Source: Candidatus Poribacteria bacterium
GTDB taxonomy: Bacteria > Poribacteria > WGA-4E > UBA9662
Assembly (NCBI GenBank): GCA_012963885.1
Contig: DTUY01000182.1
Span: forward strand, 1-64,000
DNA: 64,000 nt
Direction: 5' to 3'
Made by a program: the position numbers and the translations under genes
Shown: positions 34,305 through 40,615 of the stretch, piece after piece
Layout: each line of letters begins with the position of its first letter
Position numbering within the stretch: the stretch's first letter is position 1
The notes under the pieces: model-generated
What the model was told of the DNA's origin: nothing
The model's input: the letters and a program-made list of their open reading frames with translations, nothing else
Database searches by the model: none

Positions 34305-34884
34305 TCAAGTGCTTACTTGATAATGAAATCGCAGCGTCACACGCATTGCCCCGTTTTTGACCGTTTGCTCGTCGATGTGGATTCTTAAATGATTGTTCGC
34401 TTATAATAGTCTTTTCCAAAATTCATCTAGAGCATGCTAACATGGAGGTAGCCGAATTAGTACCGGTGTCCCTCGAGGTTGAATTCTCGGTTTTCAGGTA
34501 GCTCAAGAACAAAGAAAGTATCTTGGTACCATCCGATCTGATGGTCACTATTGGCAACTTTGTCGAACAGGGTTCCGATGCTAAAGTGCACGGCTGGTTC
34601 GCCCAGCGTTGTCTCCAGTACCTTTAGGATCACAGGATGTCGAGTAAACGACAATCCGTCTTAGCAGACAGCATATAAAAATCCCAGAGCAACCAGACTG
34701 TACCCTTAGCCCAAGTCAACAGCTTATCGGCAGGCCGTTTGTAAATTTGACCTGAGACACTCTTTGACTGTCTTGCCTAGATGTCCGCGGAATTCGACTA
34801 TCTCCTGTTCCGAGAATACGCCTTCCATAGTGACATACCCTGCGTCTTCAGAGTATCGACCACTTCAGTCAGTGAATAGCCCAT
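34305..34884 (-). pseudogene. Phytanoyl-CoA dioxygenase pseudogene
   Basis: Read on the minus strand from ATG 34884: LTEVVDTLKTQG in one frame, then YVTMEGVFSEQEIVEFRGHL in the next, then RHPVILKVLETTLGEPAVHF and DHQIGWYQDTFF in a third, and finally HIDEQTVKNGAMRV in a fourth segment near 34310-34370. In order these are the N-terminal domain, core and iron-ligand region (H-x-D, in WYQDTFF the His is already lost) of a PhyH protein. At least three frame breaks and stops; clearly dead. The remaining 34046-35212 shows no other gene. Confidence 0.7.
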
Positions 34885-35212
34885 TTTCACCTTTTTTTCG
34901 TTCGTATTCTCAGGCGATATGCAGAACTTAATTATTTTATCAACGGAGAAACAAACATTAAGCCAACTTAGGCTTGAATGCTATATCATTAGACTTGTGC
35001 TAAAATTAAAATACAATCCCAATTATGCGTTTATAAAGGTGATTGAAGGACGCGTTGTGCAGAGGCTTAGCAAATTAGTTGGACTCAGCCTACATTTTGT
35101 TGAAGATAAATAAATTTGCATTTGTTGCCACTTAGGTATTTGAATTTATCCTATCAGCAACTCGCAATTACTGAAGTGTTCCTGCAGCTCATAACAGTAG
35201 AAGGGTTCAAAA
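34885..35212. other. Intergenic stretch upstream of the TolB-like gene
   Basis: No gene is supported. A 64-codon plus-strand frame (34919-35113) has no recognisable motif. It holds the promoter region of the TolB-like gene, but no convincing hexamer pair was identified. Confidence 0.35.
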
Positions 35213-36420: not shown

Positions 36421-36450
36421 TTGACATTACTTAATCTGCTACAGTATAGT
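36421..36450 (+). promoter_or_regulatory. Consensus sigma-70 promoter of the UGA-containing thioredoxin-like gene
   Basis: Perfect TTGACA (36421-36426), 18-base spacer, TATAGT (36445-36450), giving a start near 36457 and a 65-base leader. Its quality argues that the downstream gene, interrupted by one UGA, is still transcribed. Confidence 0.6.
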
Positions 36451-36521: not shown

Positions 36522-37670
36522 ATGCTGACAAAACTAAATATCAACGAGTTTGAAACACTCCATACTTCAGTCATTCCACCTAAGGAAACGTGGACAAAAA
36601 TTAATTGGGAAATCGATCTCTGGAAGGCTCGTCGGCAAGCATACCAGACTGGCAAGCCGATCTTCATGTGGGCGATGGATGGACACCCGCTAGGATGTAC
36701 CTGAAACAACGGAGTGACAGACCGTGTGTCTATGTTTTCAGACCCGAAATTGATTCAACTTGTCCAGAAAAATTTTGTGCCGGTAGCCATCGACATCTGG
36801 TACTTGCGGCGGCAGGAAGACGAAAAAGGCAGGTTCGTTCACAACCTAATTCAACAACATTACGATAAACCGGTGATGCAGGAACAGATTCGACAAGGAA
36901 TCTATCATTTTACAGCCGACGGCACGCTTCTCAACTTTCGAAACCATCGGGATCCAGAAATCGTAAAATCACTCATCGACGACTCATTAATTAAATTCTG
37001 TGCAGGTCAAATCTATGAAGACACACTCCAATTCCATGCCGATGCCAGGTACGATCGACAACCGCCGCCAAACGGTATTATCCTCAACACGTACAGTAGG
37101 ATACTTCTGACGAAAAGCGAACTTGGTCTTTCCACTGATCAATGGTCACGGAACCTCTCCACCGGTCGTGATCACGTTTGGTTAACCGAAGAGGAATGGC
37201 GCTCCATGTTTTCACAGCCAGCAGAATTAGGCGATCAATATCCAATACCGAAGTCAATTCTTGAACGGATTGTACGGTTTCACCTTGTTGATAATGTACG
37301 AGGCGAGCCATCGATGTGGAATACAGATAACATCAAAGATGCTGAAATGAACTTAACCGTTATGGAAAAAACACCTGAAAACGTTTCACTTTCTGTGGAA
37401 GGTTCCGCGTGTCTTGAAGCGGACGAAAAAGATCGCGGTTTTGTAACACATCTAAGCGGTATCTTGGAATATAATGTAACCCAGAAACAGTTCGAGCGCT
37501 TTGATCTTCTGGCTAAGGGAAATTTTTGGGGTGAAGGACTATATACGGGAGGTGCTCCGAAAGGTAAATTCCCTCTGGTTATTGCCTTCCAACTTGCTGA
37601 CAGTCATATCGTTGCGGGCTCAGTGCCCCCTCAAGGTACAAGATCACCAAAAGAATATTTTGGTAATTGA
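36522..37670 (+). CDS. Thioredoxin-like protein with an in-frame UGA (possible selenoprotein)
   Basis: One continuous frame of 383 codons interrupted once, by TGA at 36702-36704 (codon 61). Upstream: ARRQAYQTGKPIFMWAMDGH then PLGCT; downstream: NNGVTDRVSMFSDP then NFVPVAIDIWY. This is the N-terminal part of a thioredoxin fold (K-P-I-x-x-W, redox centre, then FSDP-x(8-10)-NFVPV-x-ID), and the UGA falls at a redox-cysteine position, Cys59-Thr60-UGA61. The next 320 codons are intact, with no frameshift. A weak 4-bp hairpin follows (AGAC/GTCT, 36719-36731, loop beginning 18 bases after UGA). Reading: either selenocysteine insertion, or a single Cys-to-stop point mutation (TGT/TGC to TGA). A GTG at 36714 could restart a truncated product. 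No good ribosome site at 36522. No selenium genes in the window. Confidence 0.6.
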
Positions 37671-37963: not shown

Positions 37964-40615
37964 ATGGCTTGGCGAACACCTCTTTCACTGACAAATTTTT
38001 GTCAAAAAACTTTGCCATTACTGGACCATCATGTAAAAGAGGACCGAATAATGGAGGCTGTAGCTACAATCATTGAAACCGATCAGTGGAATTCCTTTAA
38101 TCGTTTTCATGATACCACTAAGACGTTGGTCCGTTACTACCAAGAAGCTGGAGTAGATGTGGAGGTTGCTTCCTTACCAACTGGTGGGGAAATGGGCTCA
38201 GGTCGCTGGATTATTCATCAGGCAGCTGATATCAATAAGGCAACGGTCGATATCATTAATCCGGTAGGTCAACGATTGCTGGATTACCAGGACAATCCGT
38301 GGCATCTCATTCAATGGAGTGGTTCCACACCTGCTGCAGGCATAGAAAGCAAGATAGTCATTATTGATTCGCGGAAAGAACTCGACCGAATCTCCGCCAA
38401 AGGGTTAGTAGGTAAGATGGTGCTGACAGACTTAAATCCTCGCCACCATCTACAAAAATTGATTGACACAGGAGCTGTTGGAGTCATAACAGATCGGCCA
38501 ATCCCCAACTTATCCGATGCGATCGGCTGGACTAAATTTGGTTGGGGTGGCATTCCTATTGGTGTAACAGGAAACCAACAAGATTTTGTAGGATTAGTGA
38601 TTTCAAAGACACAAGGTGCTGAATTGCGTCAATTGCTCAAGGAGCACGGCAAAGTGGTGGTACGTACTCAAGTCGATATTGATCGGTACCATGGTTCGCA
38701 CGATGTGGTCAGTGGAATCATCCGTGGTGCAGACGATCCGCAAGATGAACTCTGGGTATTGGCCCATAGCGCAGAACCCGGAGCACATGACAATGCTTCC
38801 GGAGTGGCGTTGTGCGTTGAAATTGCTCGAATAATGGCAGAGTTGATCGCCCAAAAACTGCTGCCGCGTCCCAAGCGCAGTATCCGTTTACTTAGCGCTT
38901 ATGAATGCTATGGTTTCTTCAAATACCTTGAGGATACCAGATACCTTCAGACGCCACTTGCCGGTGTGGTTGTCGACACTATTGGATCAAAATCTGAGGT
39001 CTGCGACGGTAGGTTGGAATGGCATGCCACGATTCCGATGTCAGCCGGTTTTGTCGACCGAGTGGGTGAAGCTATCATTCATGCGACCCTTAACCTGAGC
39101 AGTCCGGGGTACCAACTTTATTTGGAACCGTTTGTTTCAACTTCCGATACGCTGATTGGCGATCCTAAGTACGGTTTTCCGGCACCTTGGCTGACTACTC
39201 ATCATCAAGATCAGAACATAGGTTTTGATGCCTACCATTCTTCAGCCGACACCATCAATCTAATCGATCCAAAAGGATTAGTCACCTGTGTAACCGCTAT
39301 AGCGGGATATCTTTACTATTTGGCTGACGCGGGCAGTCAGGAAGTGATTGAACTGGCAACAGCCGAAACTGATCGGACAATTAGTCAATTACGGAAATCA
39401 CCTCAAAGATTAAAAGCCAAAGTAGATTATATTTGTCACGGTCATCGAGAGACAATTAATCGTCTGAAACGCTGGATGTGGGGAGGAGATCGGAAAGAGA
39501 TTCTAGTTCATTTGGACAATTGCCAACATCAAGTACAAGAAGCGGCTTCAAGTATTATGTCCCGACCTGTTACCTTCAGAAAAGCACGAACTCAGAAAGG
39601 AGAGATCAATAATCAAGTTTATCCGCATCGAACAGCTGTTCTCTCACCTGATTGGGGAAATAACACTAATTCAGAGATACGGTTAAAAATGGAGAAATCC
39701 CGCCTCAAACCTTGGGCACTATTCTGGGCAGATAGCAACAGATCCTTAGAAGAAATTGCTGATGCACTTTCAGTTGAGTACGGGAAAAAAGTCACTTTGC
39801 GACAAGTTACAAATTTCTTTGAAGCCCACCAAGAACTTGGGTATGTCAAATTAATCAAAGCCAAAGATAGGATCTCAAAATCACAATTAGTTACCAACCT
39901 GCATCAACTCGGCTTAGAATCCGGAATGAATTTGATGGTCCACAGTTCTTTGTCTCAGATTGGCTACCCTATCGGCGGTGCCAACATGGTTGTCGAAGCC
40001 TTGCTAGAAGTGATCGGTGATCAGGGAACCCTAATGATGCCGTCATTTAATCATCGGAGTGCTGAGATTTTTAATCCGATGACTACGCCGACTATCAATG
40101 GTGCGATTCCAGAGGCAATGTGGCGGAGGATGGAGGCAGTGCGCAGCCTCCATCCAACCCATGCCGTAACTGCTATCGGCCCCAAAGCAGCAGAATATTG
40201 CGAGGGTCACCTTGAAATCGGTATCTGGGCCGAAGACAGTCCAATCGGTAGGCTCATCCACGGTGGTGGATATATTTTGTCTTTGGGTGTCACACATGAA
40301 TCCAGTACCGCCTATCACGTAGCTGAAGTGTCGATGCCGTGTGGTTGTATTGATCCTTTTGGCAATATTGATCGCGTTGTAACATCGGATGGTACGGTGG
40401 CAGAGGTCAAGGGACTGGCTTTTCGCGCCGGAGTTTGTCCCGTCTCACCTGCTGAACTGGATACTGCTCTTAACAACCTCGGCTTACAACGACTGGGTAA
40501 AGTAGGTAAGGCTGACGCAGCCTTGGTTAAAGCGTCAGACCTCTGGGAAATCCGACGCCAGCACCTAAAAGATGCGTGTCCGAATTGCACCATCCAGCCT
40601 AGCATTCGCAAATGA
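37964..40615 (+). CDS. M28-like peptidase/PA-domain protein fused to an AAC(3)-family acetyltransferase
   Basis: 883 residues, AAGGAG before the ATG. Residues about 30-460: a peptidase-like unit with a PA-type insert (about 125-215) and M28-like metal motifs H268 (AHSAEPGAHDNASG with D276), E314 (SAYECYGF) and H425 (AYHSSADT); the usual first H-x-D is changed to H-S. Residues 590-640: a helical, winged-helix-like linker. Residues 650-870: an aminoglycoside N(3)-acetyltransferase-family domain with VHSSLSQIG, GDQGTLMMPSF and HPTHAV. AAC(3)/YokD enzymes use acetyl-CoA on an amino group. The join suggests one protein that both cleaves and acetylates an amino-containing compound. Substrate unknown. 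Confidence 0.8.
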   Translation: MAWRTPLSLTNFCQKTLPLLDHHVKEDRIMEAVATIIETDQWNSFNRFHDTTKTLVRYYQEAGVDVEVASLPTGGEMGSGRWIIHQAADINKATVDIINPVGQRLLDYQDNPWHLIQWSGSTPAAGIESKIVIIDSRKELDRISAKGLVGKMVLTDLNPRHHLQKLIDTGAVGVITDRPIPNLSDAIGWTKFGWGGIPIGVTGNQQDFVGLVISKTQGAELRQLLKEHGKVVVRTQVDIDRYHGSHDVVSGIIRGADDPQDELWVLAHSAEPGAHDNASGVALCVEIARIMAELIAQKLLPRPKRSIRLLSAYECYGFFKYLEDTRYLQTPLAGVVVDTIGSKSEVCDGRLEWHATIPMSAGFVDRVGEAIIHATLNLSSPGYQLYLEPFVSTSDTLIGDPKYGFPAPWLTTHHQDQNIGFDAYHSSADTINLIDPKGLVTCVTAIAGYLYYLADAGSQEVIELATAETDRTISQLRKSPQRLKAKVDYICHGHRETINRLKRWMWGGDRKEILVHLDNCQHQVQEAASSIMSRPVTFRKARTQKGEINNQVYPHRTAVLSPDWGNNTNSEIRLKMEKSRLKPWALFWADSNRSLEEIADALSVEYGKKVTLRQVTNFFEAHQELGYVKLIKAKDRISKSQLVTNLHQLGLESGMNLMVHSSLSQIGYPIGGANMVVEALLEVIGDQGTLMMPSFNHRSAEIFNPMTTPTINGAIPEAMWRRMEAVRSLHPTHAVTAIGPKAAEYCEGHLEIGIWAEDSPIGRLIHGGGYILSLGVTHESSTAYHVAEVSMPCGCIDPFGNIDRVVTSDGTVAEVKGLAFRAGVCPVSPAELDTALNNLGLQRLGKVGKADAALVKASDLWEIRRQHLKDACPNCTIQPSIRK

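Follow-up and report, generated by a model that had tools for sequence, protein, structure and literature searches.

A 2026 inventory lists 119 families of prokaryotic selenoproteins and also states that their discovery often depends on Cys/Sec pairs among homologues (PMC13188914), and selenoproteins in Planctomycetes are already known (PMC4807772). Among described systems, the VPGUxxT thioredoxin-like (seleno)protein (NF041383/NF041382, OS_HP5) has a thioredoxin-like N-terminal domain with selenocysteine (Sec) in the active-site region, and the inventory includes the thioredoxin-like selenoprotein Sec.1 and other families in which a thioredoxin-like or redox protein carries a CxU motif (PMC13188914). 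The gene analysed here shares these traits. It lies in a window of 64,000 nucleotides, contig C182 of a Candidatus Poribacteria-type genome (6.84-Mb assembly, 420 contigs), and the best NCBIfam match of its family is to the VPGUxxT models, over approximately 65 residues; weak N-terminal similarity is also seen to Thioredoxin_7 (PF13899) and Thioredox_DsbH (PF03190). Based on sequence comparison, we propose that this gene is almost certainly a functional selenoprotein gene, not a broken one, in which an internal UGA is read as Sec.

Reading frame and predicted protein

The following features, all on the plus strand, were delineated in the window:

36421–36450, plus strand: sigma-70-like promoter match (TTGACA-18-TATAGT), a consensus match only
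36522–37670, plus strand: predicted coding sequence of a 382-residue selenoprotein (Sec at position 61), ending in the stop codon TGA at 37668–37670
36585–36815, plus strand (limits approximate): thioredoxin-like domain with weak Thioredoxin_7/DsbH similarity and the predicted Sec in the loop following core strand one
36696–36698, plus strand: codon of Cys59, the likely resolving Cys of a CxU pair, with Ala in its place in one homologue (L021/L026)
36702–36704, plus strand: UGA predicted to encode Sec61, motif PLG-C-T-U-N-N-G; TGA in the own-genome paralogue and in 80/80 fetched loci
36719–36731, plus strand: core of a bSECIS-like hairpin (AGAC, loop CGUGU, GUCU), with 14 nt between the UGA and the core stem
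37074–37667, plus strand (limits approximate): C-terminal beta-rich domain of no recognised fold, with invariant H254, D257, R260 and G261

The frame contains a single internal TGA at codon 61, directly 3′ of Cys59–Thr60, with 60 open codons before it and 321 after it, and is closed by its own ordinary TGA. This confirms on the window sequence what an earlier note, made from the letters alone, had described. The note's contrast with multiply broken genes nearby is also fair, given the frameshifted minus-strand remnants seen by eye at approximately 34630–34980, whereas its perfect −35 and good −10 elements upstream are present (score 11/12) but constitute weak evidence, because eight promoter-like sites were found in this region against 3.1 expected. 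The minus-strand pieces at 34630–34980 resemble, by eye, a decayed phytanoyl-CoA-dioxygenase-like gene. Elsewhere in the window, a single open reading frame at 37964–40615 encodes both an M28 peptidase-like part and an aminoglycoside 3-N-acetyltransferase-like (Antibiotic_NAT) domain, and this fusion looks unusual.

A standard ORF call places the start of the gene at a GTG at 36714, four codons past the UGA, giving a product of 318 aa. This start, which ORF finders call, would suit an arrangement of two products, in which a 60-residue leader ends at the UGA, the 318-aa protein is made separately and the hairpin regulates its translation. Such a split would part the first thioredoxin core strand from the remaining domain; moreover, conservation runs across the UGA as a single motif, PLGCTUNNG, and carriers of the gene have Sec machinery. 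We therefore give this arrangement almost no credence and treat the frame as encoding one protein with Sec at position 61.

In two AlphaFold models (pLDDT 79 and 86), the N-terminal domain is thioredoxin-like, including the core of the fold, and is followed by a C-terminal domain rich in beta strands. The top Foldseek match in the PDB was 7tkv, a DsbH-domain protein (probability 1.00, low TM-score), although matches were weak, with a best E of 1.3e-3. These models and this match are in line with the reading of the UGA as lying in the redox loop of a thioredoxin-like fold. A sequence profile search of the PDB gave no match, and the best Pfam score was 18.6 bits (Thioredoxin_7/Thioredox_DsbH), below the gathering cut-off of 27. 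Across the family the active-site motif is PLG-C-(T/V)-U-N-N-G, in the forms PLGCxUNNG or UGNG. The CxU pair is the likely redox centre, since many members contain just one Cys besides Sec, two positions before it; this resolving Cys is not invariant. By eye, many Planctomycetota and Verrucomicrobiota members carry a hydrophobic, signal-like N-terminal stretch and probably act outside the cytoplasm, while no such stretch is found in the window copy.

Conservation of the UGA and distribution of the Sec machinery

The own-genome paralogue (39% identity) contains exactly one TGA, aligned with codon 61. A search of the phylum Poribacteria recovered full-length homologues (34–41% identity) and one more distant copy in four other genomes, each with exactly one TGA at the same codon. 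Searches of genome contigs and viral contigs with a single protein gave no match and an alignment query was needed; with this query, a scan of GTDB genomes using two search patterns, one of which required a Cys codon at the Sec site, yielded 80 loci that were kept. These come from at least seven phyla (Planctomycetota, Verrucomicrobiota, Kiritimatiellota, Latescibacterota, Gemmatimonadota, Chloroflexota and Poribacteria), and TGA occupies the aligned codon in every one of the 80. These fetched loci and the own-genome paralogue included no Cys orthologue, and the family appears, from these loci, to be Sec-only. The alignment thus upheld one half of the earlier expectation of Cys or Sec at this position: TGA is found throughout and never a codon for an unrelated residue, but the expected Cys homologues were not seen. 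Across 199 genomes of the class of locus L075, all 27 near-full-length matches (E below 1e-90) had exactly one TGA. The sole near relative lacking the TGA is a divergent paralogue (PLGNCRW) located approximately 5 kb from a Sec-bearing copy. No homologue of the family was found in plasmid sequences.

A pseudogene with one nonsense mutation, or a TGA introduced by assembly error, might be suspected from the single stop, from the presence of some decayed genes in this genome and from a decayed family copy in genome G024. This reading is refuted because the TGA is conserved across phyla, recurring in the 80 independent loci as well as in the paralogue; full-length conservation past the TGA and the covarying hairpin described below also stand against it, leaving it extremely improbable. 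The copy in G024 (L018, G024:C310), a genome of the same taxonomic family, is a C-terminal fragment with two TGA and one TAG. We considered decay following loss of the Sec machinery and dropped this explanation, because a full SelA is retained in G024, whose completeness is only 80%.

The earlier note had proposed a search for selA, selB, selC and selD, and all four have matches on other contigs of the genome: SelA (E 1.5e-154), tRNA-Sec (70 bits, anticodon tca) adjoining SelB (SelB wing match, E 4e-18), and SelD (E 5e-107; L114, G000:C46:18580-19500), which itself contains Sec through an in-frame TGA in CGUAAK (CGU30AAK). In the 85 genomes of the phylum, tRNA-Sec is detected in 73 and SelB in 77. 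The family also points to Sec use across Poribacteria, which no paper in the literature searched mentioned together with the term selenoprotein. A SelA match above the cut-off occurs in 28/28 other carrier genomes tested. One carrier, G015, lacks a full SelA match, has tRNA-Sec and SelB, and is assembled in approximately 730 contigs.

Low-level suppression is possible for any UGA, and the codon could in principle be read by near-cognate readthrough (for example, as Trp) or under a code in which UGA specifies Trp. However, an ordinary TGA stop ends the same gene, tRNA-Sec, SelA, SelB and SelD are all encoded, no fetched family locus has a Trp or Cys codon at the Sec site, and a covarying hairpin follows the UGA. 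Decoding other than by Sec is accordingly very hard to sustain, and reading of 36702–36704 as Sec is strongly supported by the machinery, the conservation of TGA and the hairpin.

Distant relatives in the sample from the class of L075 (L104, L105, L107, L108, L112 and L113) have an in-frame TGA in CU motifs (VCUAAG, RCUGMG, GCUMYA, RCUGGA and RCUGYA) and look like further unlisted selenoprotein subfamilies. A 556-codon ORF from Poribacteria (L019:697-2367) is a possible separate selenoprotein: its one in-frame TGA falls in SCUGSGKNFR, and neither Pfam nor NCBIfam gave a match. In the protein tree, the own-genome paralogue groups with other Poribacteria and the window copy clusters with a Planctomycetota/Verrucomicrobiota clade, although its exact place is unsure because its branch is long.

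The hairpin downstream of the UGA

The hairpin at 36719–36731 had been described in the earlier note as having only minimal bSECIS geometry, and it is indeed weak when taken alone: folded by itself, it does not outperform shuffled sequence (z +1.25), and it keeps four core pairs with a C17–A31 mismatch that also occurs in L020 and L053. The suggested RNA-folding check therefore gives no signal for the single copy, whereas covariation across homologues supports a bSECIS-like element. In an ungapped alignment of 48 bases from the TGA on, 85.7% of cells in stem columns 15–21/27–33 are paired, compared with 70.3% after shuffling and no more than 41.5% when the columns are slid; covariation of the stem is 0.56, against 0.30 after shuffling and a maximum of 0.14 for slid columns, and all seven pairs show changes on both sides. 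RNAalifold, unaided, recovers a five-pair core (17–21/27–31).

Columns 18 and 30, each at a third codon position, are paired in 77/77 sequences as CG, GC, UA, AU or GU, with at least five changes by parsimony on the protein tree. When bases were shuffled within residue class, a mean of 46/74 and a maximum of 58 were paired, and none of 10,000 shuffles reached the observed count. The Arg codon whose bases open the loop is CGT in all 77, while CGT makes up 15% of Arg codons elsewhere in the same genes. A hairpin just 3′ of the UGA with G/U in its apical loop, as expected of a bSECIS, is thus found as a covarying stem with the loop CGUGN, or AGUCU in a subgroup of three (L061, L076 and L086) whose stem is displaced by four bases. 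An Rfam search gave no match. We judge the hairpin real because the comparison shows it, which folding of the window copy alone does not; on this evidence it is a conserved element of which the window copy represents the weak end, explaining both its minimal appearance and its poor folding in isolation. As shown by comparison, the family evidently retains codon 61 as a sense UGA with a conserved hairpin after it, and co-occurs with the Sec machinery.

Putative function and relation to known families

From established bacterial Sec insertion, we infer that SelB with GTP and Sec-tRNA-Sec would bind the hairpin past the UGA and insert Sec, and that translation would end after 60 residues when selenium is absent. 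Fold and motif suggest that Sec sits in the active-site loop of the thioredoxin-like domain, forming a CxU selenol/thiol pair with Cys59 that could reduce an oxidised substrate (disulfide, peroxide or similar) via a Se–S intermediate. Binding of a substrate or partner probably falls to the C-terminal domain, in which HxxDxxRG is invariant. The likely role is that of a selenol/thiol oxidoreductase, probably exported in many relatives. Gene context yields no function, because no neighbouring genes are conserved beyond close relatives.

The family motif was not found in the literature searched, and no entry that the family matches by Pfam or NCBIfam model was seen in the accessible part of the inventory (PMC13188914); a single member may already be listed among the candidates of PMC4807772 (supplementary table). 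Seemingly constant use of Sec would explain the absence of the family from catalogues. For a widespread and seemingly Sec-only family, it follows that standard gene callers cut short its many genes in these phyla, and the family can serve to test why some enzymes cannot swap Sec for Cys.

Unlike VPGUxxT, whose models it scores at 11–17 bits against cut-offs of 275 and 350, the window family has the motif PLG-C-x-U-N-N-G, lacks the VPGUxxT motif and has an unmatched C-terminal part; none of the phylum's 85 genomes has a VPGUxxT type 2 match above cut-off. All Pfam and NCBIfam scores of the family lie far under the respective cut-offs. It differs from Thioredoxin_7 and Thioredox_DsbH in its sub-cut-off Pfam scores, its CxU motif and its other C-terminal domain, and no Pfam or NCBIfam match joins it to Sec.1 and the other CxU families in PMC13188914. 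We judge it to be a new, apparently Sec-only family among bacterial selenoproteins, widespread and absent from the catalogues checked. There is an even chance, in our view, that what is seen here represents a larger, so far uncatalogued set of Sec-dependent thioredoxin-like enzymes spread over Planctomycetota, Verrucomicrobiota and allied phyla. In such a group Sec would be invariant and Cys orthologues lacking, several CxU/CU subfamilies would exist and the C-terminal domain would be new; methods relying on Cys/Sec pairs could have overlooked it for that reason, and its chemistry may go beyond what Cys allows.
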